A stretch of 64,000 bases of DNA from Streptomyces sp. Q6 (lineage in GTDB: Bacteria > Actinomycetota > Actinomycetes > Streptomycetales > Streptomycetaceae): NCBI RefSeq assembly GCF_036967205.1, contig NZ_CP146022.1, forward strand, positions 5,704,001 through 5,768,000, given 5' to 3'. The position numbers were made by a program, and so were the translations under genes. The notes below the pieces were generated by a model, which saw only the letters and a program-made list of their open reading frames with translations, ran no database searches and had not been told where the DNA came from. This document shows, one piece after another, positions 17,405-55,090 of the stretch (the stretch's first letter is position 1; the number at the start of each line of letters is the position of its first letter).

Positions 17405-17416
17405 GTCATCACCTCC

Positions 17417-33343: not shown

Positions 33344-35077
33344 GTGGACGCCCAGTACGGCACGCACCCCCCGTCGATCGCAGCGCGCTTCGCGCGGCAG
33401 GCGTCCCTCGCCCCCGAGCGGACCGCCGTGCGCGGCGAGGACGCCGAGCTGACCTATGGGGAGCTCGACCGCCGCTCCGACCACCTGGCCCGGCACTTGC
33501 AGGACAGGGGAGTACGGCCCGGCGACGTGGTCGCCCTCGACGCCGACCGCCGCGCGGCGACCGTCGTCGCCCTCCTCGGCATCCTCAAGGCCGGCGCCGC
33601 CTATCTCGCCCTGGAGCGGCGCTACCCGGCCGAGCGCCGCCGGGTCGTGCTCGCCGACAGCGGCGCGAGCGTCGTCCTGACCCGCGACGACCTCGACACC
33701 GTGCCCGAGGGCCCGGCCCCGGACCCTGTCACGAGCGGCCCCGACGACGTCGCGTACGTCGCCTACACCTCGGGATCGACCGGCACCCCCAAGGGGGTCC
33801 GGGTGCCGCACCGCGCGGTCCTGCGGCTCGTCGTGGACGCCGACTTCCTCACCATCGGGCCCGACGACGTCGTCCTCCAGTACGCGCCCGTCGCCTTCGA
33901 CGCCTCCACCCTGGAGATCTGGGGGCCGCTCCTCAACGGCGCCCGCCTCGACATCGCCCCCGACCGCGACCTCGCCGTCGGCGAACTGACCAAGCACATA
34001 GGCCACTTCGGCATCACCGTGCTCTGGCTCACCGCCGGTCTCTTCCAGCAGGTCGTGGAGTACGGCCTCGACGACCTCGGTGGCGTACGGGTCCTGCTGG
34101 CCGGCGGCGACGTCCTGTCGCCGCCGCACGTCAACCAGGCCCTCGCGGCGCTGCCCGGCCTCACCCTCGTCAACGGCTACGGGCCCACCGAGAACACCAC
34201 GTTCACCTGCTGCCACACGATCACCGGCCCCGTGGACGGCGCCGTGCCGATCGGCCGCCCGATCCGCGGCACCGGGGTGCACATCCTCGACGCCGACCTG
34301 CGCCCGGTGCCCGACGGCGAGAGAGGCGAGCTGTACGCGACCGGCGACGGGCTCGCCCTCGACTACCTGGGCCACCCCGAGCAGACCGCCCGCGTCTTCC
34401 TGCCCGACCCCTTCGACGAGCGGCCCGGCGCCCGGATGTACCGCACCGGCGACCTGGTCAGCCGCCGCGCCGACGGCGTCCTGGAATACCACGGCCGCGC
34501 CGACCGCCAGGTGAAGATCCGGGGCTTCCGGATCGAGCCCGGCGAGATCGAGGCCGCGCTCGCCGCCCGCGACGACATCGCCGAGGCCGCCGTCGTCGCC
34601 CAGCCCCAACCGGGCGGCGGCAAGCGGCTCGTGGCCTTCGTGACCGGCCGCGGCGGTGCCCGGCCCGCCACCCTCGCGCTCCGGCGCGAACTGGGCGAGG
34701 TGCTGCCCTCGTACACCGTCCCCTCGCAGATCCGGGTCGTCGACGCGCTGCCGCTGACCGACAACGGGAAGGTCGACCGGGCCGCTCTCGCCACCGACAC
34801 CTCACCGGCCAGGCCCGAGCTGAACGCCGAGTACCGCGCCCCCGCCCCCGGCATCGAGGCCGCCGTCGCCGGACTGTGGAGCGACCACCTCGGCATCGAG
34901 GGGATCGGCGCGGACGACGACTTCTTCGAGCTGGGCGGTCACTCGCTGGTCGGCGTGCGCATCACCGCCGACCTGGAGCGCGAGTACGGCGTGCAGATCT
35001 CCCCGGTCACCTTCTACCTCGCTCCCACCCCGGCGGGTCTCGCCGAGGCCGTCGCGCAGGCCGGGGGCGACCGATGA
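33344..35077 (+). CDS. NRPS: adenylation-peptidyl carrier protein didomain (valine-like code)
   Basis: 577 residues. A domain about 10-500 with A3 YTSGSTGTPKG, A5 NGYGPTEN, A7 YRTGDL, A8 GRADRQVKIRGFRIEPGEIE and A10 NGKVD; carrier domain about 510-575 with the phosphopantetheine Ser in FFELGGHSLVG. Manual alignment of the pocket gives approximately D-A-L-W-L-A-G-T-F-K, close to valine codes (DALWxGGTFK). There is no condensation domain. The next genes are a P450 and a thioesterase, so the cassette resembles those that beta-hydroxylate a carrier-bound amino acid (NikP1/NikQ, NovH/NovI). The GTG has GGAGGA upstream. Substrate is a prediction. Confidence 0.9.
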   Translation: MDAQYGTHPPSIAARFARQASLAPERTAVRGEDAELTYGELDRRSDHLARHLQDRGVRPGDVVALDADRRAATVVALLGILKAGAAYLALERRYPAERRRVVLADSGASVVLTRDDLDTVPEGPAPDPVTSGPDDVAYVAYTSGSTGTPKGVRVPHRAVLRLVVDADFLTIGPDDVVLQYAPVAFDASTLEIWGPLLNGARLDIAPDRDLAVGELTKHIGHFGITVLWLTAGLFQQVVEYGLDDLGGVRVLLAGGDVLSPPHVNQALAALPGLTLVNGYGPTENTTFTCCHTITGPVDGAVPIGRPIRGTGVHILDADLRPVPDGERGELYATGDGLALDYLGHPEQTARVFLPDPFDERPGARMYRTGDLVSRRADGVLEYHGRADRQVKIRGFRIEPGEIEAALAARDDIAEAAVVAQPQPGGGKRLVAFVTGRGGARPATLALRRELGEVLPSYTVPSQIRVVDALPLTDNGKVDRAALATDTSPARPELNAEYRAPAPGIEAAVAGLWSDHLGIEGIGADDDFFELGGHSLVGVRITADLEREYGVQISPVTFYLAPTPAGLAEAVAQAGGDR

Positions 35078-36327
35078 GGATCGCCGGTGCCCCCGTCGCC
35101 GGCCAGGCCGTGGACCCGGCCGCCGCCGACCTGTTCGACCCGGAGTTCCACGCGAGCGGCGACCCGCACGCCCTCTGGGCCCATCTGCGCGAGCACGCCC
35201 CGCTGCACCGCCAAGTCCTGCCCGACGGGCGGTGGTTCTGGTCGGTGACCCGCTACGACGACGTGTGCCGGGTGCTCGGCGACCACCGCGAGTTCACCTC
35301 CGAGCGCGGCTCCGTGCTCACCCAGCTCGGCCACGACGACGTGTCCTCGGGCAAGATGCTGGTCTCCACCGACCCGCCGCGCCACAGCGAACTGCGCCGC
35401 CCCATGAACCGCAAGGTCACCGCCCGCGCCCTCGCCGACTGGGAGGACCGGATTCGCCGGGCGGTCACCGAGTTCCTCGCCCCCGCGCTCGACGGCGGGG
35501 CCTGGGACGTGGCCGAGCGCGCCTACCGGCTGCCCATGACCGTGGCCGGCGCCCTCATGGGCGTACCGGAGAAGGACTGGGACGACCTCGTGCGCTGGAC
35601 GGCGATGGCCGCGGCGCCCGACGACGCGGAGTTCCGCATCGGCAGCCCCGCCGCCACCCTCGCCGTCGCCCACCACCAGACCTTCGAGTACTTCGCCGCG
35701 CAGGTCCGCGAGCGCAGGAAGCGGTCCGGCGAAGGACCGGCCGAGGACCTCATCGGGCATCTGATGACGATGAGCGCGGGCGACGCCCCGCTCACCGACG
35801 AAGAGGTCATCTACAACTGCTACAGCATCCTGCTGGGCGCCAACGCGACCACCCCGCACACCGTCTCGGGCACGCTGCTCGCCCTGAGCGAGCACCCCGA
35901 CCAGCTGCGCAAGGCGGCCGGTGACCCCGACGCGGTGATCCCCTCCCTGGTGGAGGAGGGCCTGCGCTGGACGTCGCCCGCCAGCAGCTTCCTGCGCTAC
36001 GCCGTCCAGGACACCGAACTGGCCGGCGGCCGGGTGGCCGCCGGGGACGCCGTCGCCGTCTGGGTCGGCTCGGCCAACCGCGACGAACGCGTCTTCGCCG
36101 ACCCGTACCGCTTCGACGTGCTGCGCGACGACAACCGGCACATCGCCTTCGGCTACGGCCCGCACTACTGCCTGGGCGCCCCGCTCGCCCGGATCACCTT
36201 CCGCGTCCTGTTCGACGAGTTCTTCCGCGCGTTCCGGTCGGTCGAGACCGCCGGGCCCGCCCGCCATCTGCGCTCGGTGTTCATCGCCGGGCTCACCCAC
36301 CTGCCCGTGGTGACCGCACCGCGCTGA
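35074..36327 (+). CDS. Cytochrome P450 acting with the A-PCP (predicted amino-acid beta-hydroxylase)
   Basis: 417 residues. The haem loop is FGYGPHYCLGAPLAR and ExxR lies in EEGLRWTSP. The I-helix reads LLGANATTPHTV, so the usual acidic residue before Thr is Ala-Thr. C-helix PRHSELRRPMNRKVT. The ATG overlaps the A-PCP stop (ATGA), strong evidence of a working pair. In NikQ/NovI-type systems the P450 hydroxylates the aminoacyl-S-PCP at C-beta; beta-hydroxyvaline or a related residue would follow here. No ferredoxin is encoded in the cluster. Confidence 0.9.
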   Translation: MRIAGAPVAGQAVDPAAADLFDPEFHASGDPHALWAHLREHAPLHRQVLPDGRWFWSVTRYDDVCRVLGDHREFTSERGSVLTQLGHDDVSSGKMLVSTDPPRHSELRRPMNRKVTARALADWEDRIRRAVTEFLAPALDGGAWDVAERAYRLPMTVAGALMGVPEKDWDDLVRWTAMAAAPDDAEFRIGSPAATLAVAHHQTFEYFAAQVRERRKRSGEGPAEDLIGHLMTMSAGDAPLTDEEVIYNCYSILLGANATTPHTVSGTLLALSEHPDQLRKAAGDPDAVIPSLVEEGLRWTSPASSFLRYAVQDTELAGGRVAAGDAVAVWVGSANRDERVFADPYRFDVLRDDNRHIAFGYGPHYCLGAPLARITFRVLFDEFFRAFRSVETAGPARHLRSVFIAGLTHLPVVTAPR

Positions 36328-36388
36328 CCCGCGCCCCGGCCCCCTTCCCTCGCCCCGCCACCCCACACGATTGCGAGACGGATCACCC

Positions 36389-37147
36389 ATGTCCGCCGGC
36401 ACCGCCCTGCCCCACTCCCGCTGGCTGCTGCGCAAACCCGCAGCCGACGCCACCGCCCGCGTCTTCTGCTTCCCCTACTCGGGCGTCGGCGCGTCCATGT
36501 TCAACGCCTGGCCCAAGCGGCTCGGACCCGACGACGGCATCGAGGTGTGCTCCGTCCAACTCCCCGGCCGTGAGGGCCGGCTGCGAGAGCCGCACTACGG
36601 CACCTACGAGCAGCTCGCCGAGCAGCTCGTCGACGCCCTCGCCCCGCACCTGGACCGGCCCTTCGTCTTCTTCGGGCACTGCGCCGGCTCGCTGCCCGCC
36701 TTCGAGACGGCGCGGCTGCTCGCGGAGCGGGGACTGCCGCTGCCCGAGCGGGTCTTCGTCTCCGCCCAGGTCGCGCCGCACCACTGCCCCCACGACCGTT
36801 TCCTCGACATGACGGACGCGGAGCTGCGCGCCGAACTGGAGGAGCTGACGCTGCTGCGGGGCGGCATCGCCCACCCCCAGCTGCTCGACCTCGCGCTCGC
36901 CGTCCTCAAGGAGGACCTCGACGCCAACCGGGTCTACCGCAGGCAGGCCCCCACACCGGTGCCGTTCCCGATCGGCGTGCTGCACTGGGACGATGACCCG
37001 GAGGTCACCCAGGACCAGCTGAAGGGCTGGCAGGAGTACGCCGACGACGTCACGTTCCCGGTGCTGCCCGGCGGCCACTACGCCTTCCTGAACGCGCCCG
37101 GCGCACTCCTCGACACCCTCGGCGCCGCGCTGGCGGCCCGCCCGTGA
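36389..37147 (+). CDS. Type II thioesterase with Cys nucleophile (GHCAG)
   Basis: 252 residues of alpha/beta-hydrolase fold: VFCFPYSGVGASMFNAWPKRL, oxyanion region and the nucleophile elbow FFGHCAGSLPA, in which Cys98 replaces the usual Ser of GHSxG. The catalytic His is in GGHYAFLN. Type II thioesterases hydrolyse acyl or aminoacyl groups from carrier proteins; here it may release the beta-hydroxylated amino acid, as NikP2 does. Cys thioesterases are rarer and in some NRPS systems serve transfer or strained-ring formation. The next gene overlaps its stop (GTGA). Confidence 0.87.
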   Translation: MSAGTALPHSRWLLRKPAADATARVFCFPYSGVGASMFNAWPKRLGPDDGIEVCSVQLPGREGRLREPHYGTYEQLAEQLVDALAPHLDRPFVFFGHCAGSLPAFETARLLAERGLPLPERVFVSAQVAPHHCPHDRFLDMTDAELRAELEELTLLRGGIAHPQLLDLALAVLKEDLDANRVYRRQAPTPVPFPIGVLHWDDDPEVTQDQLKGWQEYADDVTFPVLPGGHYAFLNAPGALLDTLGAALAARP

Positions 37148-38388
37148 CCGACCTCACGAGCCGGCCCGCCCCCGTCTCCGTCATGAAGCTGCCGGGCTTC
37201 CTGCGGCTGCTCACCGGACGCTCCCTGTCGTTCCTCGCCACCGCCCTGGTGCCCACCGCCCTCACCCTCGCCGTCATCGAGGCCACCGGCAGCGCCACCG
37301 ACCTCGGCCTGGTGCTCGCCGCCGAACTCGTGCCGCAGCTCGCACTGCTGCCCATCGGCGGGGTCGTCGCCGACCGGTTCCCCGCCCAGCGGGTCGCCTT
37401 CGTCGCCGACCTGATCCGCGGTATCGCCCAACTCGCCATCGGCGCCGAGCTGCTGGCGGGATCCGTCCGCATCGTCGACCTGGCCGTACTGTCCGCCGTC
37501 ACCGGCGCCGCCATCGCCTTCGGTACGCCCACGATGTCGCCGCTCGTCGCGGCCACCGTGCCGCAGGAGTCCCGGATGCAGGCCAACGGCCACCTCGGGG
37601 TGGCCCGCGGTATCGCGCTGGTCGCGGGCCCCGGCGTGGCCGGTGTCCTGGTCGTCGCCGTCGGCGCGGGCTGGGCGTTCCTCGCCACCGCCGCCGTGTT
37701 CGGCTGCGCCGCCGTCACCCTCGGCGGACTGCCCTCGGTCACCCCCGCCCGCGACGGGCGCCCCGGCTTCTTCCGCCAGCTCGCCGACGGCTGGCAGGAA
37801 GTGCGCAGCCGCCCCTGGTTCTGGTCCAACCTCATCGGCCACGGCGTCTCCAACCTGGCCGCCGGCGTCCTGATGACCCTCGGCCCGCTGATCGCCGTGG
37901 AACGGCTCGGCGGGGAGTTCGCCTGGGTGGTCGTCTACCAGGCGGGCATGGCGGGCATGCTGATCGGCGCGTTCGTCGCGCCCCGCCTGAACGTCCGGCG
38001 GCCGCTGGTGGTGACGTCGCTGTGCGGCGCCCTGTTCGCGCTGCCGCTGATCACCTTCGCCGCGCGCTGGCCGACCTGGACCGACGCGCTGGCGTACGGC
38101 ATCGCCATGCTCGGCATCGGCGTGCTCAACACGCTGTGGCAGACCACCATGCAGCGGCACTTCCCGGCCGAGGCGCTGGCCCGCGCGGACTCCTACGACG
38201 CCCTGCTGTCGTTCGCCGCCCGGCCGCTGGGTCTCGCGGTCGCGGCGCCCGTAGCGGCCCTGACCGGCGAGGCGCTGCCGCTGCTGATCGCGGCGGTCCT
38301 GGTCGTCGTCGCCAACCTCGCCGTGATCGCGCTGCCGGACGCCCGCGCCCTCACCGCCCGCGCCCCTCAAGACGTCAACCCTCGCTGA
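37144..38388 (+). CDS. MFS transporter, probable exporter of the cluster product
   Basis: 414 residues with about 11-12 TM helices. It opens with LPGFLRLLTGRSLSFLATALVPTALTLAVI and has VADRFPAQRVAFVADLIRG, the cytoplasmic loop 2-3 motif A of the major facilitator superfamily. It is translationally coupled to the thioesterase (GTGA). Location inside the operon suggests export and self-resistance. Confidence 0.88.
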   Translation: MTDLTSRPAPVSVMKLPGFLRLLTGRSLSFLATALVPTALTLAVIEATGSATDLGLVLAAELVPQLALLPIGGVVADRFPAQRVAFVADLIRGIAQLAIGAELLAGSVRIVDLAVLSAVTGAAIAFGTPTMSPLVAATVPQESRMQANGHLGVARGIALVAGPGVAGVLVVAVGAGWAFLATAAVFGCAAVTLGGLPSVTPARDGRPGFFRQLADGWQEVRSRPWFWSNLIGHGVSNLAAGVLMTLGPLIAVERLGGEFAWVVVYQAGMAGMLIGAFVAPRLNVRRPLVVTSLCGALFALPLITFAARWPTWTDALAYGIAMLGIGVLNTLWQTTMQRHFPAEALARADSYDALLSFAARPLGLAVAAPVAALTGEALPLLIAAVLVVVANLAVIALPDARALTARAPQDVNPR

Positions 38389-38404
38389 AGAGGCAGGCTC
38401 CCCC

Positions 38405-41400
38405 ATGGCCCACCCCGCCACCCCCGACCGACTCGCCGTGATCGGCGTCGCGTTCGAGTTCCCCGAAGCCGACGACTGGACCGCGCTGACCGCGCTGCTG
38501 CGCGGCGCGGGACACACCATGCGCCCGATGCCCGAGCGGCGCGTGCAGGACACCGGCCTCACGCCGACCCCCGAGGACCGGGCGGGCGGCTGGATCGAGG
38601 ACATCACCGGGTTCGACCACCGCCGCTTCGGGCTCTCCCGCGCCGAAGCCGAACTCGTCGACCCGCGCCAGCGGCGCATGCTCCAGCTCGCGGTGCGCGC
38701 GATCGGCGCCGCCGGATACGCCCCCGCCGAGCTGGCCGGCACCAACACGGCCGTCCTCGTGGGCGGTTACGGCGCCCCGCACCCCAGCCTGTTCAACCTG
38801 CTGCCGCCCGAGGAGCAGCGCGGCGGCCCCGCCACCACCGGCAGCCTGCACGCCTACGCCGCCGGACGCATCTCGTACCACCTCGATCTGCGCGGCCCCG
38901 CCCAGGTCGTCGACACGTCCTGCTCCTCGTTCCTGGTGGCGCTGCACGAGGCCCGCTGGAAGCTGGCCAGGGGCGAGAGCGACCTCGCGCTCGTCGGTGG
39001 CTACGAGCTGGTGCTCGGCGCCGTGCCCCGGCACAGCGCCGCCGCCGACGACGGGCTCGGCGTGCTCTCCGCGACCGACCGCTGCCGCCCCTTCGACGCC
39101 GCCGCCGACGGCACCACGCACGGCGAGGGCGGCGGGTTCGTCCTGGTCAAGCGGCTCGCCGATGCCCTGCGCGACGGCGACACCGTGCACGCGGTGATCC
39201 GCGGCAGCGCCGTCAACCAGGACGCGGGCCGCAGCACGGGACTGACCGCGCCCAGCCCGCTCGCCCAGGGCGAGGTCGTCGCCGCCGCGTGGCGCGACGC
39301 CGGGGTGACCCCGTCCGACATCGGGTACGTCGAGGCGCACGGCACCGGCACGAAGATCGGCGACCCCATCGAGATCCAGGGCCTCGCCGCCGCGTTCGGC
39401 CCCGACTTCACCGGCGTACGACCGCTGTCCTCCGTCAAGGCCAACCTCGGGCACCTCGGGTGCATGGCGTCCTTCGCCGGACTCGTACGCGTCCTCGCCC
39501 AGTTCCGGGCCGGCGAGGTCTTCCCCACCGCCCACTTCACCGAGCCCTCCGAACTGCTCGCCCTGGACACCACCCCGCTGCGCGTCGCCGACCGCGTCGA
39601 GCCGTGGCCCGCGACGGACGGCACCCGCGTCGCCGGACTCAGCAGCTTCGGCCTCAGCGGGACCAACGCGCACCTGGTCGTCGAGCAGGGCCCCGTCCCG
39701 GCACGCCCCGACGACGAGCCCGCCGCCGAACGCCCCGTGGTCCTGTCTGCCCCCACCGAGCAGGGCCTGCGCGACCAACTGCGCGCCCTGCGCGACGTGG
39801 TGGCCGCCGACGTGAGCGGATTCGACCTGGCCGCGGCGAGCGAGACGCTCACCGTGGGCCGCGAGCACGCCGCCCACCGGTACGCGACGGCGGTCCACGA
39901 CGGGGCCGGACTCCTCGACCGGCTCGACGCCGTGCTGCACGGCAAGGGCGCCGAGCCGGTGAAGCCCGGCGCGCTGGTGCTCGCCGTCGGCGACCTGCGC
40001 GACGCCGACCTCGACGCCCTGCGCCGACAGGCGCTGACGTCCCCGCGGTTCGCCGACGCGCTCGCCGCCGCCGAGGCGCATCTGCCGTCCGACACGTGGA
40101 ACCCGGCGCAGCGCGCGCTGATGTGGCTCGTGGGCGCGCAGGCCGTCCTCGCCGCGGCCGGTGTCGCGGCCGACCTCGTCCTCGCGCACGGCCTCGGCAA
40201 GGCCGCGGCACGTGTGGCCGGCGGAGTGCCCGTCGCGGCCGAACTCGACGCGCTGACCGAGCCCGGCCCGGCGGTCGCGCCCCGGACGCGGCGGCGCTCG
40301 ACGCGGCGCTCGCGTCCCGGGGCGAGCACCTCCTCGTCGTCGACCTCGCGCCGGGCAGCGCGCTGTCCACCCTGCTCGCCGGACGCGCCGCCGCCGTGGC
40401 GACCACCCCGGCCGAGGCCCTGTGCCACGTCTACGAGCAGGGCCGCGACGTCGACTGGGCCACGCTCCTCGGCCGCGCCCCGCGCCGCCGCGTGGAACTC
40501 CCCACGGCGGCCCCGGCCCAGGAACACTGCTGGCCGCGCACGGCCGCCGCTGCCCCGCAGCCCGCGCCCGCAGCGACCGGGACCGCCGCGCCCGCGCTCG
40601 GGGTCGACGACACGGTCCTCGCCTTCGCGCGTGATGTCCTGAAGGAGCCGGGGCTCGAGCTGTCCGACGACTTCTTCGACGCGGGCGGCAACTCTCTCAA
40701 CGGTGGCCAGTTGGTGGCGCGTCTCAATGAGCGCTACGGCACGGAGATCGAGGTCCTCGACCTCTTCGACCTCCCGGACCTCGCCGCGCTCGCCGCGCAC
40801 GTGACCGAACTCGCCCCTGAGCCGGTCGCCGCGCCCGCGCTCGGGGTCGACGACACGGTCCTCGCCTTCGCGCGTGATGTCCTGAAGGAGCCGGGGCTCG
40901 AGCTGCCCGACGACTTCTTCGACGCGGGCGGCAATTCCCTCAACGGTGGCCAGTTGGTGGCGCGTCTCAATGAGCGCTACGGCACGGAGATCGAGGTCCT
41001 CGACCTCTTCGACCTCCCGGACCTCGCCGCGCTCGCCGCGCACGTGGCCTCACTCATCCCCGTACCGGAGGAGTCGACGACTCCCGTCGAGACGGTGAGC
41101 AGGTCGGCCGACGCGGCCGGGAGCGGGCCGCTCTCCGGTGCGCAGACCGCCATCTGGGCCGCGGACCGGCTCGACCCCGACACCGGCGCCTACAACGTGC
41201 CCGCCGCCTTCCTGCTCGACCGGCCCGGCGACCCGCACGACCTCGCCGCGCGCCTGGCCGCCCTGGTGCACCGGCACCCGATGCTCCGCACCCACCTCCA
41301 GGACACCGACGACGGGCCGCACCAGCACGTCGTGCCCGAGGAGCGGGCGCACATCCCGCTGGAACGGCTCGACTGGGACCTCACCGCGCACACCGCCGCC

Positions 41401-45524: not shown

Positions 45525-45556
45525 CCGCACCCCGCGACGCACACCGCACCGCACAC

Positions 45557-45584
45557 GAGCCGGGGGCCTCCCCGCCCCCGGCTC
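45557..45584 (+). terminator. Intergenic hairpin between M28 peptidase and KAS III genes
   Basis: GAGCCGGGGGC (45557-45567) pairs with 45574-45584 across a 6-nt loop. No T-run. It sits just before the KAS III ribosome site and may reduce read-through or protect processed mRNA. Confidence 0.5.
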
Positions 45585-45601
45585 CCCGGGAAGGACGAGA
45601 C

Positions 45602-46618: not shown

Positions 46619-46645
46619 ACCCCCCTGGAAGGACCCCCACACCCG

Positions 46646-48556
46646 ATGGCTGACGACGACCTGCTGACCCGGGCCAGGCGCCTGACCGAACCCGGTGCCG
46701 CCGCCGACCCGGGCCTCACGGCCCGCCTTGCCGACCGCTTCGACACCCCCGTGGCCCGCGAGGCCGGCCGGATCCTGGCGGCCGTGGACCCGCGCCTGCT
46801 GTGCGCCCCCGGCCACGAGCCGCGCCCGCTGCGGGTGGCGCTCGCGCCCTCGTTCACCGCCGACCAGATGGCCGCCCCGCTGCGCGTCGCGCTGCTCGCC
46901 TCCGGCTTCGCCCCCGAGTTCCAGATCGCCGCCCCGGACCAGCAACTGCTGCGCCTGGGCGGGGCGGTGGCCGACCTCGACGCGTTCGGCGCCGACCTGA
47001 CCCTGTGCCCGGTGCACGAGGAGGTCTTCCTGCCCCGCGACCTCGACCCCGGCGACCTCGACGCGCTGCGCGCCGCGGTCGACGAGCGCTGGGAGCGGTT
47101 CGCCGCCGCCGTCGGCTCCTACGCCGCGCGCACCACGGGCACCGTGCTCCTGAACACCGTGCCGCTGCCCGCCTCCGTGCTGCGCGGCGTCGTCCCGCAC
47201 CGCGGCCGGGCCGCCCTCGCCCGACTCTGGCGCGAGCTGAACCTGCGCCTCCTCGACCTCGCCGAACAGGCCGACCGGGTGGACGTCGTCGACCTGGAGA
47301 CGCTGCTCGCCGAACACCCGGGACCGCTGCGCGACGGGCGGCTGCACGCCTTCGCGCAGATGGCCTGGGCACCCGGCGTCGAGGACCGCTACGCCGCCGA
47401 AGTCGCCGCCTACACCCGGGCGTTCACCGGACGCGGCAAGAAGTGCCTGGTCCTCGACCTGGACAACACCCTGTGGGGCGGTGTCCTCGGCGACGACGGC
47501 CCGGAGAACATCCAGCTCGGCCCGCTCTACCCGGGCAACGCCTACGTCGCCGTGCAGCGCGCCGCCCTCGCCCTGCGCCGCCAGGGCGTGCTCCTCGCCG
47601 TCGCCAGCAAGAACGACCCCGACCTGGTCGCCCGCGTCCTCGACGAACACCCCGGACTCGTGCTGCGCGCCACCGACTTCGTCGCCGTGGAGGCGGGCTG
47701 GGGGCCCAAGGACGACAGCATCCGGCGGATCGCGGAGCAGCTCAACATCGGCCTCGACAGCATCGTCTTCGCCGACGACTCCGCCTTCGAGTGCGACCTC
47801 GTACGGCACTCCCTGCCCGAGGTCACCGTGATCCACCTGGCGGGCGACCCGGCCGACCACGCGGCGGCCCTCCTCGCCGGGGGCGGCTTCGACGCGCTCA
47901 CCACGACCGACACCGACAAGGAACGCACCGGCCTGTACCGGGCGCGCGCCCAGCGGCACCGCTTCAGCGCCGACCAGTCCTCGCCCGAGGACTACCTGCA
48001 CGGCCTCGGCCTGCGGGTCACGCTGCGCGCCGCCGACGCGTACACGCTGCCCCGGATCGTCCAGCTCGGCGGCCGCACCAACCAGTTCAACCTCATCGGC
48101 GGCTGCCACTCCGAGGCCGACACCCGCCGCATGGCCGACTCTCCCGAGCACGCCCTGTACGCCTTCGAGGTCGCCGACCGGTTCGGCGACGAGGGTGTCG
48201 TGGGCGCCCTGTGGATCGCCCGCCACCACGACCACTGGGTCCTGGAGAACGCGGTGATGAGCTGCCGCGTCTTCGCCCGCGGCGTGGAGCACGCGGTCCT
48301 CGGCGCCGTCGCCGACCACGCCCGCGCCGCGGGCGCCGCCCGCCTGGAGGCCGACCTGCGCCGCACCCCGCGCAACGGGCCCGCCGCCCGCTTCCTGGAC
48401 GAGGCCGGGTTCGCCCTCGCCGAGCCCGGCGCCGACGGCACCGAGCGCCGGGTCCTCGCCCTGGACCCGGGCCCCGCCGCCACCGCCCCGTGGATCACCG
48501 TCACCGTCACCGCCCCGGCCGCCGCCGGCTCCCGAGAAGGACACCTCATCGCATGA
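46646..48556 (+). CDS. FkbH-like glyceryl-ACP synthase (HAD superfamily)
   Basis: 636 residues. N-terminal region about 1-260, HAD core from about 265 with KKCLVLDLDNTLWGGVLGDDG, second HAD motif VASKN, third IVFADDSAFECDLV, and a C-terminal GNAT-like region (NQFNLIGG...ALWIARHHDHWVLEN). FkbH enzymes dephosphorylate 1,3-bisphosphoglycerate and load the D-glyceryl unit on an ACP. The enzymes that convert glyceryl-ACP to methoxymalonyl-ACP (dehydrogenases, methyltransferase) are not present, so the glyceryl unit is probably used directly. Its stop overlaps the ACP start (ATGA). Confidence 0.93.
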   Translation: MADDDLLTRARRLTEPGAAADPGLTARLADRFDTPVAREAGRILAAVDPRLLCAPGHEPRPLRVALAPSFTADQMAAPLRVALLASGFAPEFQIAAPDQQLLRLGGAVADLDAFGADLTLCPVHEEVFLPRDLDPGDLDALRAAVDERWERFAAAVGSYAARTTGTVLLNTVPLPASVLRGVVPHRGRAALARLWRELNLRLLDLAEQADRVDVVDLETLLAEHPGPLRDGRLHAFAQMAWAPGVEDRYAAEVAAYTRAFTGRGKKCLVLDLDNTLWGGVLGDDGPENIQLGPLYPGNAYVAVQRAALALRRQGVLLAVASKNDPDLVARVLDEHPGLVLRATDFVAVEAGWGPKDDSIRRIAEQLNIGLDSIVFADDSAFECDLVRHSLPEVTVIHLAGDPADHAAALLAGGGFDALTTTDTDKERTGLYRARAQRHRFSADQSSPEDYLHGLGLRVTLRAADAYTLPRIVQLGGRTNQFNLIGGCHSEADTRRMADSPEHALYAFEVADRFGDEGVVGALWIARHHDHWVLENAVMSCRVFARGVEHAVLGAVADHARAAGAARLEADLRRTPRNGPAARFLDEAGFALAEPGADGTERRVLALDPGPAATAPWITVTVTAPAAAGSREGHLIA

Positions 48557-48816
48557 GCGAGCACCTCGCCGCCTCGGCCCCCACCGCCCTGGCCGACGTC
48601 ATCTCCACCGTCACCGACGTCCCCGCCGCACAGCTCACCAAAGACACCCGGTTCGACTCGCTCGGCCACTGGAACAGCTTCGCCGCGCTGCGCCTGCTCA
48701 CCGCCGTGGAGGAGCACTTCGGCATCAAGCTCGACCTGCGCACCTACCTCGGCACCGAGACGGTCGACGGCCTCGCGGCCCTGATCGACACCGCGACCGC
48801 CGGACGGCAGCGGTGA
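48553..48816 (+). CDS. Discrete acyl carrier protein for the glyceryl unit
   Basis: 87 residues. The carrier motif is RFDSLGHWNSFAALRLL; by alignment with standard ACPs the phosphopantetheine Ser is Ser42 in WNSF. Coupled to fkbH-like upstream (ATGA) and to the second A-PCP gene downstream. Confidence 0.9.
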   Translation: MSEHLAASAPTALADVISTVTDVPAAQLTKDTRFDSLGHWNSFAALRLLTAVEEHFGIKLDLRTYLGTETVDGLAALIDTATAGRQR

Positions 48817-48860
48817 CCGCCGCGACCGCGTCCGCCTCGACCCACCGAACGGAGCACCCG

Positions 48861-50672
48861 ATGACCAGCACCACCGCGACCCCGCGCACGGCGGCCCACG
48901 TCTTCGCGGCCACGGCACGCGACGCCGCCGCCCGCCCGGCCCTGCGCCAGAACGAGGAACGGCTGACCTACGCGGAGCTGGCGGCCGCCGCGGGCGAGAG
49001 CGCCGAGTGGCTGCGCGCCCAGGGCGTCGGCCGCGGCGACATCGTCGCGACCCTGATGGACCGCTCGCACCGCTGCATGATCGGCGTTCTCGCCGCCTGG
49101 GCCGTCGGCGCCGCCTACGTCCACATCGAGGCCACCGACCCGGACCACCGCGTCGCCACCCTGCTCGGCACCACCAAGGCCGCCGCCGTCCTCACCGACG
49201 CCCGCAACCGGCCCCGCCTCGCCGACGCCGCCGCGCCGGTGCGCACCGTCACCACCGACGGCCCCGGCGCCCCGTACACCGTCGACCCGGGCCTGCACCC
49301 CGACGACACCGCCTACCTGGTGTGCACCTCCGGGTCCACCGGCACCCCCAAGGCCGTCGAGGTGCAGCACCGGGCGCTGCTCAACTACTGCGCCGCGTTC
49401 GAGGAGCGGGTGAGCGCCACCGGCCTCGACAGCTACGGCCTCGCCACCACCTTCGCCGCCGACCTCGGCAAGGTGTCGGTGTACGGCGCGCTGCTCTCCG
49501 GGGCCCGGCTCGACGTCTACCCGCGCGACACCACGCTCGACCCGCGGGCACTCGCCGCCGACCTCGCCGCGCACCCCGCCGACGTCCTCACGTACACCCC
49601 GTCGCAGCTGGCCGCGCTCGCCGCCGAGGGCGACCTCGCCGCGCTGCTGCCGCGCCGGGTGCTCGTCGTGGCGGGGGAGGCGTTCCCGCCGCGCCTCGCC
49701 GAGCAGATCCTGCGCGTCCGCCCCGACCTGGAGGTGCACAACGGCTACGGCCCCTCCGAGGCGACCATCCTCGCCACCATGCACCGGGTGCGGCCCGGCG
49801 ACACCATGGGCCCGCGCCTGTCCATCGGCACCCCGCTGGCCGGCGTCGAGGCCCGCGTCCTCGACGAGCGGCTCGCACCCGTGCCCGACGGCAGCCCCGG
49901 CATCCTCTACCTCGGCGGCGCCTGTGTCGCCGCCGGATACCGCGGCGAAGCGGGCCTGACCCAGGCCAAGTTCGTCGAACTGGACGGGCCCGGCGCGGGC
50001 GTCCACTACTGCACCGACGACCTCGTCATACGCGAGACGGACGGCACCCTCGACTATCTCGGGCGCGCCGACCGCCAGTTGAAGATCCGCGGCAACCGCG
50101 TCGAGCCCGGCGAGGTCGAGGCGGCGCTGCTCGCCCGCGCCGGCGTGCGCCAGGCCGTAGTCACCGGTGAACGCCCCACGCCGGACGCCCCGTTGGAGCT
50201 CGTCGCCTACCTCGTGGGCGACGCCGACCCGCGCGCGCTCGTGGCCGACCTGCGGGCCACGCTGCCCTCCGCGCTGGTGCCCGGCGCCGTGCACACCGTC
50301 GCCGCGATCCCGACGAACCTCAACGGCAAGACCGACTTCGCCGCGCTGCGCGAGACCGTACGCGCCGCCGCGACCGCACCGGCCGTGGCGCCCGCGCAGG
50401 CGCCGCGCGAAGGCACCGAGCAGCTCATCGCCGGGATCTGGGAAGAGGCGCTCGGCCGTACCGGCATCGGCCGCGACGAGCGCTTCCTCGACATCGGCGG
50501 CGACTCCTTCAAGGCGCTCACCGTCTTCGCCCGACTGCGCCGCCACCACCCCGACCTGGTCATCGCGCAGCTGTACGCGCACGCGACCGTCGCCGAACTG
50601 GCCGCCGCGCTGACCGGCGTCCAGGAACCGGCACAGGCCGAGCCCGCCCGGGTCACGGTGATCGACCTGTGA
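48861..50672 (+). CDS. NRPS: second adenylation-carrier didomain with non-standard A-domain core
   Basis: 603 residues. A3 VCTSGSTGTPKAVEV, A5 NGYGPSEAT, A8 GRADRQLKIRGNRVEPGEVE, A10 NLNGKTDF, and a C-terminal carrier with IGGDSFKAL. The core A4 region reads TTFAADLGKVSVYGALL instead of the common FDxSxxE pattern: two extra residues and no aligned Asp235. The Asp that anchors the alpha-amino group may be displaced, so an unusual or non-alpha-amino substrate is possible; no amino acid is assigned. ATG at 48861 has GGAG 6 nt upstream; a GTG at 48813, overlapping the ACP stop, is the alternative start. Confidence 0.88.
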   Translation: MTSTTATPRTAAHVFAATARDAAARPALRQNEERLTYAELAAAAGESAEWLRAQGVGRGDIVATLMDRSHRCMIGVLAAWAVGAAYVHIEATDPDHRVATLLGTTKAAAVLTDARNRPRLADAAAPVRTVTTDGPGAPYTVDPGLHPDDTAYLVCTSGSTGTPKAVEVQHRALLNYCAAFEERVSATGLDSYGLATTFAADLGKVSVYGALLSGARLDVYPRDTTLDPRALAADLAAHPADVLTYTPSQLAALAAEGDLAALLPRRVLVVAGEAFPPRLAEQILRVRPDLEVHNGYGPSEATILATMHRVRPGDTMGPRLSIGTPLAGVEARVLDERLAPVPDGSPGILYLGGACVAAGYRGEAGLTQAKFVELDGPGAGVHYCTDDLVIRETDGTLDYLGRADRQLKIRGNRVEPGEVEAALLARAGVRQAVVTGERPTPDAPLELVAYLVGDADPRALVADLRATLPSALVPGAVHTVAAIPTNLNGKTDFAALRETVRAAATAPAVAPAQAPREGTEQLIAGIWEEALGRTGIGRDERFLDIGGDSFKALTVFARLRRHHPDLVIAQLYAHATVAELAAALTGVQEPAQAEPARVTVIDL

Positions 50673-51496
50673 GGCGCCGACAACTGACCTCTCTGATCTG
50701 GGAGTTCACCGAACCGAAGACAGAACCGGCGACCGCCCCCGTAGCGGCGCAGGCGTCGCCGTCGCGCACCTTCGTCCTCGCCCCGTTCGGCGGCGGCAGC
50801 GCGTACGCCGTCGGTGACTGGCTGTCCGACCTGCGCGCCCCGGGGGAGCGGGTCCTCGCGCTCCAGTACCCCGGGCGCGGCCCCCGCTCCGCCGAACCGC
50901 ACGCCACCGACCTGATGGCCCTGGCGCGGACCGCCGCCGAGGAGATCGCCGACCACACCGAGGGCCCGCTCGTCCTGGTCGGCCACAGCCTCGGCGCCGT
51001 CCTCGGCTACGAGATCGCCCACCGCCTCGAACTCCTCGGCAAGGACGTCGAGTTGGTCGCCGTGTCCGCGGCCCGCCCGCCGGACCTGCAACGCCTCGAC
51101 CCGGCCGTCGTGCTCTCCATGACCCGGGGCGACTGGATCGAGGAGCTCGCCACGGGCGGCAACGCGGGCCTCGGCGCCTCCCCCCTCGCCGACGTCGCCG
51201 ACCTCGCGATCCCCGTCCTGCGCGCCGACTACCTGCTCCTGGCCCGCTACCGCCCCGGCCCGCCGCGCCCCCTCGACTGCCCCCTGCTCGCCCTCGGCGG
51301 CACCGCCGACCCCTGGGTGGAACGCCCCCACCTCGACGCCTGGCGATCCTGGACCACCGGCCCGTTCGCCGCGGCCGTGCTGCCCGGCGACCACTTCTAC
51401 TACCGGGGCGCCACCGCCGAGTTCGGCGGCCTGATCCGCTCCCGCCTGCGCCACCCGGCCCCTGCCGTCGCCCTCACCCCCGGAAGGCACCTGTGA
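50669..51496 (+). CDS. Type II thioesterase (Ser nucleophile)
   Basis: 275 residues. FVLAPFGGGSAYAVGDWL opens the alpha/beta-hydrolase fold; the nucleophile is Ser107 in LVGHSLGAVLGYE; Asp in GGTADPW and His in PGDHFYYR complete the triad. Expected to clear mis-primed carrier domains or release intermediates. The GTG start overlaps the A-PCP stop, so it is part of the same coupled operon. This second thioesterase is canonical, unlike the Cys enzyme at 36.4 kb. Confidence 0.88.
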   Translation: MRRRQLTSLIWEFTEPKTEPATAPVAAQASPSRTFVLAPFGGGSAYAVGDWLSDLRAPGERVLALQYPGRGPRSAEPHATDLMALARTAAEEIADHTEGPLVLVGHSLGAVLGYEIAHRLELLGKDVELVAVSAARPPDLQRLDPAVVLSMTRGDWIEELATGGNAGLGASPLADVADLAIPVLRADYLLLARYRPGPPRPLDCPLLALGGTADPWVERPHLDAWRSWTTGPFAAAVLPGDHFYYRGATAEFGGLIRSRLRHPAPAVALTPGRHL

Positions 51497-52776
51497 TGCC
51501 CCGCAAAACCCTCGTCGTCGTGTACGCGGACGGCGCCGCGCACCCCGGTGACATCGCCGTCGGCCTCGCCTCCTGGGCCGACTGCGTCTTCGTCGCCGAA
51601 CCCGACGCGCACACCCGCGCGATGGAGCCGCTGCTCGCCCAGTTCGGTCCCGTCGTGCTCACCGACTCGGTGCCGCAGGCCGCCGAGCGGCTGCGCGCCC
51701 ACGCCCCCGACGGCATCGTCACGTACAGCGAACGCGCCCTGCACCTGGCCGCCGCGCTCGCCGAGCAGCTCGCCCTGCCCTTCCACGACCGGCGCACCAT
51801 CGGACTGCTCACCGACAAGTGGCAGCAGCGCGCCGCCCTGTCGGCCGCCGGCGTCGACGTCGTGCGCTGCCGCCGCGTCGAGCGCCTCGCCGACTGGGAC
51901 GAGGCCGTCGCCGAGACCGGCCTGCCCGCCGTCCTCAAGCCCGCGCACGGCGGCGGCAGCCGCAACACCTTCTACGTCACCGACGCCGACGAGGGCCGCG
52001 AACTGGCCCGCACCCTGCTCGGCGACGAGCGGCCCGGCCTCGTCACGGGCGGCACCCTCGTCCTGGAGGAGTACCTGCGGGGCAGGGACTGCGGCCCGTT
52101 CGGCGACTACGTGTCCGTCGAGGCCGTCGTCCAGGGCGGCACCGTCACCGACCTCGCCGTCACCGGCAAGTTCCCGATGGTGCCCCCGTTCCGCGAGACC
52201 GGACGGTTCTGGCCCTCGCCGTTCACCGCCGACGAGGACGACGTCTGCCGCGACCTGGCCCGCCGGGCCGTCGAGGCGCTCGGGGTGCGCGACGGACTCA
52301 CCCACACCGAGATCAAGCTGACCCCCGCGGGCCCGCGGCTCATCGAGGTCAACGGCCGGCTCGGCGGCGGCATCAACGAACTGTCCGTACGCGCCCAGAA
52401 GTTCGACCTGATCGAACTCGGCGGCCGCGTCGCCCTCGGCGAACGGCCCGAGCTGCCCGCCCCCTACACGGGCCGCGCCTACTTCCAGCTGTTCCACCCG
52501 GCGCCCCGCACCCCCGGCACCCTGCTGGGCATCGACGGCGCCGACGCGGTCAAGCGGCTGCCCGGCGTCACGCTCTACCGCCCGTACGCGCGGCCGGGCA
52601 CCCCGCTGCCCGGCGGCGTGCAGACCCTGGAGCTGGACATCGTCATGGGCGAGGCCGACGACGTCGCCGAACTGGCCGCCATCGCCAAGGACGTCGACGC
52701 CACCCTGCGCTACCGCTTCGCCTTCGACGCCGAGGACCCCCGCGAGGTCACCGGCGCGGACCTGGGCGCGCTGTGA
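51496..52776 (+). CDS. ATP-grasp ligase
   Basis: 426 residues. ATP-grasp landmarks: DKWQQRAALSAAGVDVVRCRRV, the Lys-containing strand LPAVLKPAHGGGSRNTF with a Gly-rich loop, LVLEEYLRGRDC, and the metal-binding THTEIKLTPAGPRLIEVNGRLGGGI. The family includes L-amino-acid ligases (BacD-like) that join a carboxylate to an amine via an acyl phosphate. In this cluster it probably forms an amide bond outside the assembly line. ATG at 51496 overlaps the upstream stop (TGATG) and has GGAAGG. Confidence 0.88.
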   Translation: MPRKTLVVVYADGAAHPGDIAVGLASWADCVFVAEPDAHTRAMEPLLAQFGPVVLTDSVPQAAERLRAHAPDGIVTYSERALHLAAALAEQLALPFHDRRTIGLLTDKWQQRAALSAAGVDVVRCRRVERLADWDEAVAETGLPAVLKPAHGGGSRNTFYVTDADEGRELARTLLGDERPGLVTGGTLVLEEYLRGRDCGPFGDYVSVEAVVQGGTVTDLAVTGKFPMVPPFRETGRFWPSPFTADEDDVCRDLARRAVEALGVRDGLTHTEIKLTPAGPRLIEVNGRLGGGINELSVRAQKFDLIELGGRVALGERPELPAPYTGRAYFQLFHPAPRTPGTLLGIDGADAVKRLPGVTLYRPYARPGTPLPGGVQTLELDIVMGEADDVAELAAIAKDVDATLRYRFAFDAEDPREVTGADLGAL

Positions 52777-52844
52777 CCGCGTAACGCCGCGCCCACCCGT
52801 ACACCACCGAGCACCACGAGCATCACCGAGAGGGACACACCGCG

Positions 52845-54410
52845 ATGAACGACAGCTCCACGACCCTGGCTCCCGAGGTCCTGCTCGCCGAGATCTGGAA
52901 GGACATCCTCGGCGCCGACGAGGTCGGCCCCGACGACGACTTCTTCTCGCTGGGCGGCGACTCCCTGCTCGCCCTGCAAGTCATCGGCGCCGCCCAGGAA
53001 CAGGGCCTGACCCTGTCGCTGCTCGACCTGTTCCGCAACCCGACGCCGCGCGGCGCCTGCCAGGCCCTCGCCGACGCGGGCCCCGCCGCCCAGGGCCGCG
53101 CCACCGACCTGCTCAGCCCGCTCGACCGGGCCCGCGTGCCCGACGACGCCGAGGACGCCTTTCCCGCCGCCCGCCTCCAGCTCGGCCTGATCTACGAGAG
53201 CCTGGTCAGCGACGGCGCGTTCTACCTCGACGTCATCTCCCGCACCGTCAACCGCCCGCTCGACGCCGACGTGCTGCGCTCCGCCCTCGACCGGCTGTCG
53301 CGCCGCCACCCCACCCTGCGCACCCGCTTCGACCTCGGCACGTTCAGCGAACCGATGCAGCTCGTGCTGCGCGACGCCCCGATCCCGCTCACCCTCGACG
53401 ACCACGAGGGCCTCGACGAGGAGAGCGCCGCCGCACGCTACGAGGAGGCGATGGCGGAGCTCGGCCGCCCCTTCGACGCGGAGCGCGCCCCGCTCCTGCG
53501 GGTGCACGCGGCCCGCCTGGACGCCGACCGCTTCCGGCTCTCGTACTCCTTCCACCACGCGATCCTCGACGGGTGGAGCGAGGCGGTCTTCTTCAACGAG
53601 CTCGTCCGCGGATACGCCGCCCTGCTCGCCGGCGAGGAGCTCGCGCTGCCCGAGCCCGTGCCCTACGCCGAGTTCGTCCGCCTGGAGCGGGAGGCCGTCG
53701 CCGACCCCGCCTGCGCCCGGCACTTCGAAGGGCTCAAGGAGCTGCTCCCCGCGCAGCGCAGCACGAGCGTCGAGGCCCCCGACCACCACAAGGTCAGCGC
53801 CACCGTCCCCGCCGACGACGCCCGCCGCCTCGACGAGCTGGCCGCCGCGTCGGGCCTGCCCGTCAAGAGCCTGCTGTTCGCCGCCGCCTGCGCCGCCGTC
53901 GGCGCGGCCTGGGAGACGCCCACACCGGTCGTCGGCCTGCTCCTGAACGGGCGGCCCGAGCGCACCGGCGCCGACGTCACCCTCGGCCTGTTCCTCAACC
54001 AGCTCCCGGTCCGCCTCGACCTCACCGGCGCCGACTGGCGCACCGCGGGCCGGCTCGCCCTGGACGCCGAGAACGACCTGCTGCCGCACCGCCGCTTCCC
54101 GCACTCGGAGGTGCGCCGACTGCTCGGGCACAACCCGTTCGAGGTGACGTTCAACTACGTACGCTTCCACCCGCGCGACGAACTGCTCACCGCCGGACTG
54201 CTCGCGGTCGAGGAGGACATGCGCGACCACACCAGCCTGCCCGTGCGCATCGAGGCGCTGAACGAGACGGCAGGCTCGGGCCTGAGCCTGCACGTCACGG
54301 CCGATGTGAACCGGTGCGGCGACGACCTGCCCGGCGACCTGCTCGCCAAGCTGCTCGGCGCGGTGCACGCGCTGGTCACCACCCCCGACGGGCCGGTCGG
54401 CGTCCGGTGA
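52845..54410 (+). CDS. NRPS: carrier-condensation (PCP-C) didomain
   Basis: 521 residues. The N-terminal PCP is about 8-75 (DDDFFSLGGDSLLALQ), followed by a complete condensation domain about 100-515 with HHxxxDG in SFHHAILDGWSEA. No A domain is present, so the PCP must be loaded in trans, for example by an A-PCP gene of the operon. Such units often perform the last condensation or a release onto a free amine. It starts 68 bp after the ATP-grasp gene. Confidence 0.88.
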   Translation: MNDSSTTLAPEVLLAEIWKDILGADEVGPDDDFFSLGGDSLLALQVIGAAQEQGLTLSLLDLFRNPTPRGACQALADAGPAAQGRATDLLSPLDRARVPDDAEDAFPAARLQLGLIYESLVSDGAFYLDVISRTVNRPLDADVLRSALDRLSRRHPTLRTRFDLGTFSEPMQLVLRDAPIPLTLDDHEGLDEESAAARYEEAMAELGRPFDAERAPLLRVHAARLDADRFRLSYSFHHAILDGWSEAVFFNELVRGYAALLAGEELALPEPVPYAEFVRLEREAVADPACARHFEGLKELLPAQRSTSVEAPDHHKVSATVPADDARRLDELAAASGLPVKSLLFAAACAAVGAAWETPTPVVGLLLNGRPERTGADVTLGLFLNQLPVRLDLTGADWRTAGRLALDAENDLLPHRRFPHSEVRRLLGHNPFEVTFNYVRFHPRDELLTAGLLAVEEDMRDHTSLPVRIEALNETAGSGLSLHVTADVNRCGDDLPGDLLAKLLGAVHALVTTPDGPVGVR

Positions 54411-55090
54411 TGCGGGGGCTCCTGCCGGCCTGGGTGGCGGTGGCCGAGAGCGACGGCGGTGCGGGCCCGCGACAGCCGCCCGCCTTCCCGGAGGAGCTGG
54501 ACCACATCGCGCACGCGGTCCCGGCGCGGCGCGCGGAGTTCCTCCAGGTACGGCACTGCGCCCGGCGCGCCCTGACGGCGGCCGGGTTCCAGGCGGGCCC
54601 GCTGCTGCCCGGACCCGACCGGGCGCCGCGCTGGCCGGCCGGCGCGGTGGGCAGCATGACCCACTGCACGGGCTACCGGGCGGCGGCCGTCGCGGCGGCG
54701 GGCCGGGTCCGCGCCGTGGGCATCGACGCCGAACCGCACGAGGCGCTGCCGCCCGAGGTCCGCACGCTCGTCGCGGACCCCGAGGAGCAGGCCGCGCTGC
54801 GGCGGCTGGAGCGGCTGCATCCGCGGGTGCACTGGGACCGGCTGCTGTTCTCCGCGAAGGAGAGCGTCTTCAAGGCGTGGTACCCGCTCACCGGGCAGTG
54901 GCTGGACTTCCACGACGCGCGGGTGACGATCCACCCGGGCGACGGCGGGTTCACCGCGCGGCTCGCCACGACCGAGCTGCACGGCCGCTGGGCGGCGACA
55001 CCCCGGCTGCTCACGACGGCCGTCACGCTGCCCGCTCAGCGGAACCTGACCGGCTCGGCCGAGAACGCGCCGTGCCGCGTCGAACGCTGA
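54410..55090 (+). CDS. Sfp/EntD-type 4'-phosphopantetheinyl transferase
   Basis: 226 residues. Diagnostic motifs are GSMTHCTGY, VGIDAEPHEALP and FSAKESVFKAWYP, which bind CoA and Mg. It activates the carrier domains of the cluster by transferring the phosphopantetheine arm to the conserved Ser. The ATG overlaps the PCP-C stop (TGATG), so it is the last gene of the operon. Its 3' end overlaps the convergent DNA ligase gene by 55 bp. Confidence 0.93.
   Translation: MRGLLPAWVAVAESDGGAGPRQPPAFPEELDHIAHAVPARRAEFLQVRHCARRALTAAGFQAGPLLPGPDRAPRWPAGAVGSMTHCTGYRAAAVAAAGRVRAVGIDAEPHEALPPEVRTLVADPEEQAALRRLERLHPRVHWDRLLFSAKESVFKAWYPLTGQWLDFHDARVTIHPGDGGFTARLATTELHGRWAATPRLLTTAVTLPAQRNLTGSAENAPCRVER

Follow-up and report, generated by a model that had tools for sequence, protein, structure and literature searches.

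What does a single run of genes make when nonribosomal peptide synthetase (NRPS) and polyketide synthase (PKS) domains stand in it beside glyceryl-type enzymes, an amino acid ligase, an exporter, and a peptidase? The question is raised by a cluster of Streptomyces sp. Q6 (contig NZ_CP146022.1; host genome, 8.95 Mb in two contigs). The window, that is, the whole stretch of 64,000 nucleotides analyzed here, covers positions 5,704,001 to 5,768,000. We conclude that the operon-like NRPS/PKS gene run is real and conserved and that its product is orphan. The best explanation, to which we assign a probability of about 45%, is a conserved cluster for a small NRPS/PKS product made by a five-step route. 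Gene content, gene order, conservation, and active-site residues were observed directly, and the chemistry is inferred from them.

Conservation and extent of the cluster

Seven genomes, four of Streptomyces and three of Nocardia, share twelve core genes that keep the same order and all lie on a single strand. They encode a stand-alone adenylation (A)-peptidyl carrier protein (PCP) didomain (A1), a cytochrome P450, a type II thioesterase (TE1), a major facilitator superfamily (MFS) exporter, a megasynthase, an M28 peptidase, a protein related to 3-ketoacyl-acyl carrier protein synthase III (KAS III), FkbH, a discrete acyl carrier protein (ACP), a second A-PCP (A2), an ATP-grasp ligase, and a PCP-condensation (C) didomain (PCP-C). 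As the same 12 genes stand in the same order in six other genomes, the gene run is more than chance, and it represents an orphan cluster family common to two genera.

A contig scan with KAS III, limited in its reach to close relatives, returned 10 loci. Five hold the cluster (Streptomyces rhizoryzae, L037; Streptomyces sp. NRRL F-4489, L041; Nocardia colli, L038; N. suismassiliense, L039; and N. ninae, L040), and five (L042 to L046) are without it. Matches to PCP-C were found in 3 of 392 congeneric genomes, namely the window's own, S. rhizoryzae again (G418), and a new genome of the same genus, G461, which holds the full core set. The KAS III matches in 3 of 150 genomes of the genus Nocardia are the three Nocardia strains already named. 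Core-protein identity to the window is about 80 to 93% in S. rhizoryzae and NRRL F-4489, 61 to 81% in G461, and 48 to 74% in Nocardia; the G+C content of the Nocardia copies is 0.68 to 0.69, versus 0.66 to 0.68 for flank stretches that include a few kilobases of the cluster. KAS III itself occurs in 19 of 246 sampled congeneric genomes, with at most 52% identity in the 18 besides the window's own, and the gene set was not found in any of these 18 (16 stretches of 18 to 20 kb from 15 genomes and 3 to 4 kb of G028, G142, and G076). Neither S. rhizoryzae nor G461 was among the matches of the 246-genome sample; the 392-genome sample had both.

Beyond the regulator gene on one side and PCP-C or the phosphopantetheinyl transferase (PPTase) gene on the other, no gene order is common to the window and the flanks of the relatives, which yield only weak matches to adenylate-forming or P450 paralogues (25 to 36%). 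The shared order thus ends at these genes, and the cluster spans about 29,838 to 54,410 or 55,090. The regulator, of the Streptomyces antibiotic regulatory protein (SARP) type, adjoins only the four Streptomyces clusters (84% identity in S. rhizoryzae and NRRL F-4489 and 65% in G461), with no homologue in the Nocardia cluster flanks; it is the likely pathway regulator and belongs to the set. Similarly, TE2 is present in the four Streptomyces clusters and absent from the three Nocardia clusters. We rule out the PPTase as a core member, since it adjoins the cluster only in the window and G461. Its best homologues in S. rhizoryzae and NRRL F-4489 lie on other contigs (56%), and one in N. suismassiliense lies far off on the same contig (48%); for N. 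colli and N. ninae the search covered the flanks.

Gene classes were called with Pfam and NCBIfam on the window proteins, and in the window the genes follow one another in the order below.

29838 to 32825 (about; start codon uncertain), + strand: SARP-type regulator (Pfam Trans_reg_C, BTAD, NB-ARC, and TPR)
33344 to 35077, + strand: A1, stand-alone A-PCP (Pfam; 7/7 clusters)
35074 to 36327, + strand: cytochrome P450, predicted to beta-hydroxylate valine bound to a PCP (Pfam; 7/7)
36371 to 37147, + strand: TE1, type II thioesterase whose nucleophile is Cys (GHCAG); predicted role, aminoacyl shuttling or hydrolytic editing (Pfam)
37144 to 38388, + strand: MFS exporter (Pfam; 7/7)
38405 to 40281, + strand: megasynthase N-terminal part, ketosynthase (KS) and acyltransferase (AT)-like remnant (Pfam, active sites, and alignment)
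40282 to 43986, + strand: megasynthase C-terminal part, in another frame: end of the AT remnant, ACP, ACP, C, PCP, and epimerization (E)-like domain
44046 to 45524, + strand: M28 metallopeptidase with PA domain, predicted unmasking enzyme (Pfam; motifs 7/7)
45602 to 46618, + strand: KAS III-like acyltransferase (Cys; GHFGPAD His-Asp; nearest Protein Data Bank [PDB] chain, ChlB3 7eqi)
46646 to 48556, + strand: FkbH (HAD IIIC), predicted glyceryl transferase/phosphatase (NCBIfam TIGR01686)
48553 to 48816, + strand: discrete ACP, predicted glyceryl carrier (Pfam; 7/7)
48813 to 50672, + strand: A2, stand-alone A-PCP (Pfam; 7/7)
50669 to 51496, + strand: TE2, type II thioesterase with Ser nucleophile (GHSLG) (Pfam; the four Streptomyces clusters only)
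51493 to 52776, + strand: ATP-grasp ligase related to BacD and L-amino-acid ligases (7/7)
52845 to 54410, + strand: PCP-C, A-less PCP (GGDSL) and CmodAA-like, predicted dehydrating C domain (7/7)
54410 to 55090, + strand: PPTase (adjoins the cluster in 2/7)

An earlier note on this DNA, made from the sequence alone, had described a hybrid NRPS/PKS cluster in a mostly overlapping operon. The domain content bears this out, every enzyme class that it named was found, and adjacent genes overlap by 1 to 4 nt at 7 of 13 junctions when the megasynthase is taken as one gene (a 59-nt gap precedes the M28 gene, which starts at 44046). Its list is to be extended by the exporter, the M28 peptidase, and the SARP, which also belong; the PPTase is present where the note placed it and is a loose neighbor.

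A predicted dehydrovaline cassette

The genes for A1, the P450, and TE1 adjoin each other. The specificity code of A1 (DALWLGGTFK, with positions numbered as in GrsA) is valine-like by the known code tables; its first nine positions are invariant in all seven clusters, and the Lys at A10 is present in the six that were checked. Among PDB chains, the P450 matches 8vxg (CYP125MRCA; 271.6 bits) and then P450sky (4l0e, with 4pwv and 4pxh; 250.7 bits). The Cys nucleophile of TE1 (GHCAG) is kept in 7/7. The cluster contains two A-less PCPs, one of them in PCP-C. The role of TE1 as an LgnA-type shuttle is a prediction from its Cys nucleophile and gene context.

The fate of the valine-derived residue would depend on the C domain of PCP-C, for which McyA (8jbr; 194.7 bits) and AmbE (7r9x; 163.1 bits) are the top two of 41 PDB matches, followed by PvdL (about 134 bits over two stretches) and LgrA (113 bits, including the PCP). 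In a control search with the ACP-C-PCP-E part of the megasynthase, AmbE was not among 37 PDB matches and the best stretch of McyA was its PCP; the cutoff of this search (1e-10) was stricter than that used for PCP-C (1e-8). According to a review, the C domains of microcystin and bleomycin made up a small CmodAA clade, and those of AmbE, AlbB, and LgnD, of the CmodAA group, dehydrate beta-hydroxy residues (PMC10880069); on this basis we take the C domain of 8jbr to be the microcystin member of CmodAA. The CmodAA signature given in work on corallorazine comprises the DG of HHxxxDG, [K/R]SVLLAAH, in which the His is present in 48 of the 50 members of the cited set, and Arg-Arg at C6 (PMC11342130). 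All seven copies of PCP-C keep the DG (HHAILDG), the Lys (KSLL), and the Arg-Arg (RRFP), and in all seven the consensus His is replaced by Ala or Asn, so we call the domain CmodAA-like. GGDSI has been described in T domains that precede E, DCL, and dehydrating domains (PMC10880069); the donor PCP of PCP-C has GGDSL.

Because the C domain of PCP-C is nearest to those of McyA and AmbE, A1, the P450, TE1, and PCP-C would together form a dehydrovaline cassette. The beta-hydroxylated, valine-like residue predicted earlier is consistent with the A1 code; to judge from the relatives of PCP-C, it is more likely to be dehydrated to dehydrovaline than kept as beta-hydroxyvaline.

The same genes could instead serve a supply of the nikkomycin or vancomycin type, in which A1, the P450, and TE1 only release free beta-hydroxyvaline and A2 re-activates it; PCP-C would then be an ordinary condensing didomain, and the product would retain beta-hydroxyvaline, as first proposed. 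Comparable A-PCP/P450/TE triads are known (NikP1/NikQ/NikP2 and BpsD/OxyD/Bhp), TE1 is closest to editing type II thioesterases, and the missing CmodAA His would be accounted for. We nevertheless consider such a supply unlikely, as PCP-C is nearest to McyA and AmbE, the A2 code is unlike that of A1, and the A-less PCPs would still need a loader.

The megasynthase

The earlier note had read one enzyme of KS, degenerate AT, two ACPs, C, PCP, and E. The domains are present; in this assembly, however, the KS and the ACP-ACP-C-PCP-E part lie in different frames, with the break near 40,281, and the tandem ACP occurs in only two of the seven clusters. Coding bias switches frame in 180-nt windows starting at 40,160 to 40,280, and in an alignment with two relatives the sequence differs by one base near 40,281, within a C-rich run. 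Either an assembly error or a true mutation could underlie the break. The megasynthase reads through in 6/6 relatives: as a single open reading frame (ORF) of 1,785 codons in S. rhizoryzae, 1,786 in NRRL F-4489, 2,024 in N. colli, and 1,850 in N. suismassiliense, and as an ORF of 1,907 codons, stop to stop, in N. ninae. In G461, the reading frame of the KS continues without a stop into the C domain. Read-through copies thus exist in named strains in which the product can be sought.

The KS retains its Cys-His-His in 7/7. PF00698 (AT) has no match in the window megasynthase, and the AT remnant, conserved in both genera (five sequences, other than those of the window and G461), has HG.G at the GHSxG position in 7/7. 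No intact cis AT is therefore present, as in trans-AT enzymes. Genome-wide there are four PF00698 matches, the nearest in the gene at window positions 60098 to 61078, which is the nearest possible trans-AT.

The tandem ACPs (40584 to 41068) form a 242-nt direct repeat with a spacing of 243 nt and 95% identity. A tandem pair is found in N. colli too, with 88% identity between its ACPs over 75 residues. The two duplications are apparently independent, and the other five clusters have a single ACP. The C domain has the motif HHLFVDG, and the PCP that follows it has no A domain. These carriers agree with the expectation that every carrier except those of the two A-PCPs is without a loading domain in cis.

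The terminal domain had been called E. In all seven clusters it has HHxxxDL (HHLAVDL in the window) and V(A/G)HGRE, versus HHLVVDG and EGHGRE in PvdL and BacC. The Glu of EGHGRE, the catalytic residue by work on TycA and GrsA, is missing in 7/7 (Val in the window), and the domain accordingly falls outside the usual Epimerization pattern. The missing Glu makes epimerase activity doubtful, and the E-like domain is probably not an epimerase.

Predicted glyceryl supply

A glyceryl-forming FkbH, as the earlier note had it, is supported: the window protein scores 306.3 bits against TIGR01686 (cutoff, 146.65), LDLDNTLWGG is kept in 7/7, and the discrete ACP adjoins FkbH in 7/7, as expected for a glyceryl enzyme. 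FkbH and an ACP should form glyceryl-S-ACP. The KAS III that completes the gene triad of the note is also present, and its role is where our reading departs. In 7/7 it has the Cys of QACGGG and a GHFGPAD motif that aligns with GHLGASD of ChlB3, whose triad is Cys113-His296-Asp301 (PMC9573744). Aligned with 2ebd, it has Leu at the FabH His position and a His one place further. It therefore combines a Cys-His-Asp triad with the loss of the FabH His, as found in KAS III-like acyltransferases. With this triad the enzyme would transfer glyceryl rather than condense, and it is probably the transferase of the glyceryl made by FkbH.

Condensation has its own precedent. FkbH, ACP, and KAS III stand side by side, as in tetronate clusters, and the KAS III could join glyceryl-ACP to a beta-ketoacyl or aminoacyl-malonyl thioester to give an aminoacyl tetronate or related lactone. 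Its acyltransferase triad, with Leu in place of the FabH His, argues against this, as does the lack of an acetyltransferase/eliminase pair among the scanned proteins, and we regard a tetronate-type product as very unlikely.

The acceptor of the glyceryl unit was considered from the context of KAS III homologues elsewhere. At L021, KAS III, FkbH, and ACP lie beside a C-A-PCP-KS protein and a protein with AT, C, carrier, and reductase domains, and at L042 their neighbor is a protein made up of C and carrier domains; both contexts favor glyceryl delivery to an assembly line. At L024 and L025, KAS III and FkbH are accompanied by an ATP-grasp ligase and a protein resembling Met-tRNA synthetase, and there is no match to NRPS genes in 20 kb (Pfam was run on L025, and L024 was assigned by similarity and N terminus), which favors glyceryl transfer to a small molecule. 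The latter pair is compatible with a decorating role, in which KAS III would put glyceryl on a hydroxyl or amine of the peptide and the KS would extend the A2 amino acid, leaving its amine free for a cap. BacD-like ligases, to which the ATP-grasp protein is observed to be similar, need an amine acceptor. CerJ, moreover, acylates a sugar hydroxyl (PMC9573744). The association of the triad with a hybrid KS/NRPS line at L021 and with C-PCP genes at L042 makes such decoration distinctly improbable, and we prefer transfer to the megasynthase.

Two further observations were made on these loci. L025 also has an N-hydroxylase-like ORF (by N terminus), and L024 and L025 resemble hydrazine-forming clusters. 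G047, a genome of the genus Streptomyces, carries two KAS III homologues (L021 and L022; 51 to 52% identical to the window's) in opposite orientation. They are separated by about 15 kb and flank a hybrid NRPS/PKS that terminates in a reductase.

Second A-PCP, ligase, exporter, and peptidase

The code of A2 (DLVTVAGILK) is invariant at its first nine positions in 7/7, and the domain has FAADLG in place of the usual FDxS motif. The ATP-grasp ligase is nearest to BacD. The putative metal-site motifs of the M28 peptidase are kept in 7/7, and its N termini, judged by eye, are signal-like in 7/7. Together, the ligase, the exporter, and the peptidase with its signal-like N terminus lead by analogy to a scheme of masking, export, and unmasking, which the gene set suggests.

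Proposed route

In the route that we favor, A1 would load valine on its own PCP, the P450 would hydroxylate C-beta, and TE1 would move the beta-hydroxyvaline to an A-less PCP (step 1). FkbH would make glyceryl-S-ACP, and the KAS III-like enzyme would pass the glyceryl, most likely to the megasynthase as a starter (step 2). The KS would add a trans-loaded malonyl unit, and the C domain would join the unit to beta-hydroxyvaline (step 3). The condensation domain of PCP-C would dehydrate the residue to dehydrovaline and join or release the chain with the A2-bound residue (step 4). Finally, the ATP-grasp ligase would attach an amino acid as a cap, the MFS protein would export the capped product, and the secreted M28 peptidase would remove the cap (step 5). 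Support is strongest for steps 1 and 4, followed by step 5; for step 2 the acceptor is a guess, and so is the sequence in which steps 3 and 4 occur.

Several points weigh against this route. The nearest chain to the P450, CYP125MRCA, is not a PCP-acting enzyme, the nearest solved relative of TE1 is RifR, an editing type II thioesterase, and PCP-C has the replaced consensus His. No MbtH was found among the scanned proteins and no dedicated trans-AT among the cluster proteins (Pfam), and the A2 code is not known to match any assigned code. The frameshift may leave the window copy inactive. The host genome has nine M28 matches, among which that of the cluster ranks second, so the presence of such a gene is nothing unusual, and an N-acylated product would offer no free amine to a BacD-like ligase.

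A bolder version, which we hold to be doubtful, is that the product is a self-masked dehydrovaline antimetabolite of a convergent line, with all the megasynthase carriers fed in trans (TE1 bringing beta-hydroxyvaline and KAS III a glyceryl starter from FkbH and its ACP), the nonepimerizing E-like domain in a new structural or catalytic role, and the M28 peptidase unmasking the compound after export. The cluster raises enzymatic questions in any case: whether a CmodAA-like domain without the consensus His forms dehydrovaline, whether KAS III transfers glyceryl to an NRPS/PKS line, why an E-like domain without its Glu is kept in 7/7, and whether the ligase and secreted peptidase provide self-protection.

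Other genes in the window

A terpene-type group at 10077 to 20837 comprises a polyprenyl synthetase, two P450s, a terpene synthase, a 2-oxoglutarate oxygenase, an NlpC/P60 protein, a TetR regulator, and two AurF-like proteins. These genes (10 to 20 kb) were rejected as cluster members, having no match in the fetched flanks of the relatives. At 55036 to 57903, LigD ligase-like and polymerase-like domains in separate ORFs lie beside a Ku gene and make up an end-joining set. At 60098 to 63885, the discrete acyltransferase is divergent from an ACP gene and two paired KS genes, the start of another PKS locus. The ORFs at 20876 to 21757, 26894 to 27634, and 28953 to 29756 (294, 246, and 267 amino acids) have no Pfam match.

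Comparison with known systems

The earlier note knew of no pathway with this combination of enzymes; likewise, no described pathway with the same gene set was found in the literature searched, which left out MIBiG and most subscription papers. Three candidates were rejected. NCBIfam models for SolG and SolI match several window proteins far below the cutoff, and the solanimycin gene table is without FkbH, KAS III, ATP-grasp, and M28 genes; the PKS SolA, the NRPSs SolF to SolH, and the aminotransferase SolC are in turn not represented in the window gene set (PMC9765074). The sol cluster thus has a different architecture and belongs to another pathway (PMC9765074 and PMC10204066). The foxicin cluster includes FkbH, A, C, and PCP-TE, but its PKS part consists of two complete modules, and its description mentions no P450, ATP-grasp, or ketoacyl. 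The diazo clusters dob and nin of N. ninae are described as hydrazone pathways and were set aside on that description.

For individual steps, in contrast, there are partial parallels. The KAS III shares its fold family and Cys-His-Asp triad with ChlB3 and CerJ, which differ in using 6-methylsalicylyl or malonyl substrates (PMC9573744); the present cluster is distinguished by pairing such an enzyme with FkbH. An amino acid ligase is shared with bacilysin (BacD) and tabtoxin (TblF), and a metallopeptidase with tabtoxin, for which the zinc metallopeptidase TabP is thought to release the active form. The warheads of those compounds are different, the peptidase here is an M28 enzyme with a signal-like N terminus, and the pairing is by analogy (PMC3927611).

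The predicted dehydrovaline cassette has counterparts in three systems. For cryopeptin, hydroxylation of valine and then conversion of hydroxyvaline to dehydrovaline by a modified-amino-acid C domain have been proposed, in that case with a hydroxylase of the metallo-beta-lactamase family, for a Pedobacter lipopeptide, and with a conserved crpA-C core (PMC12181424). The cluster for L-2-amino-4-methoxy-trans-3-butenoic acid (AMB) parallels ours, as predicted, in a C domain that dehydrates a beta-hydroxylated residue (AmbB/AmbE) and in an aminoacyl-masked product, and a mask-unmask scheme has also been proposed for Ala-AMB; AMB differs in being Glu-derived, in using two non-heme oxygenases and an NRPS-added mask, and in that the four required enzymes include neither PKS nor glyceryl enzymes (PMC10880069). 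In the legonmycin pathway, Thr is converted to dehydrobutyrine, and its description names no P450, KS, FkbH, KAS III, ATP-grasp, or peptidase; like our cluster, however, it combines a stand-alone A-T protein, a type II thioesterase, and an A-less T domain before a dehydrating C domain (LgnA, LgnB, and LgnD), the A-T protein and the thioesterase LgnA loading that T domain (PMC8748450).

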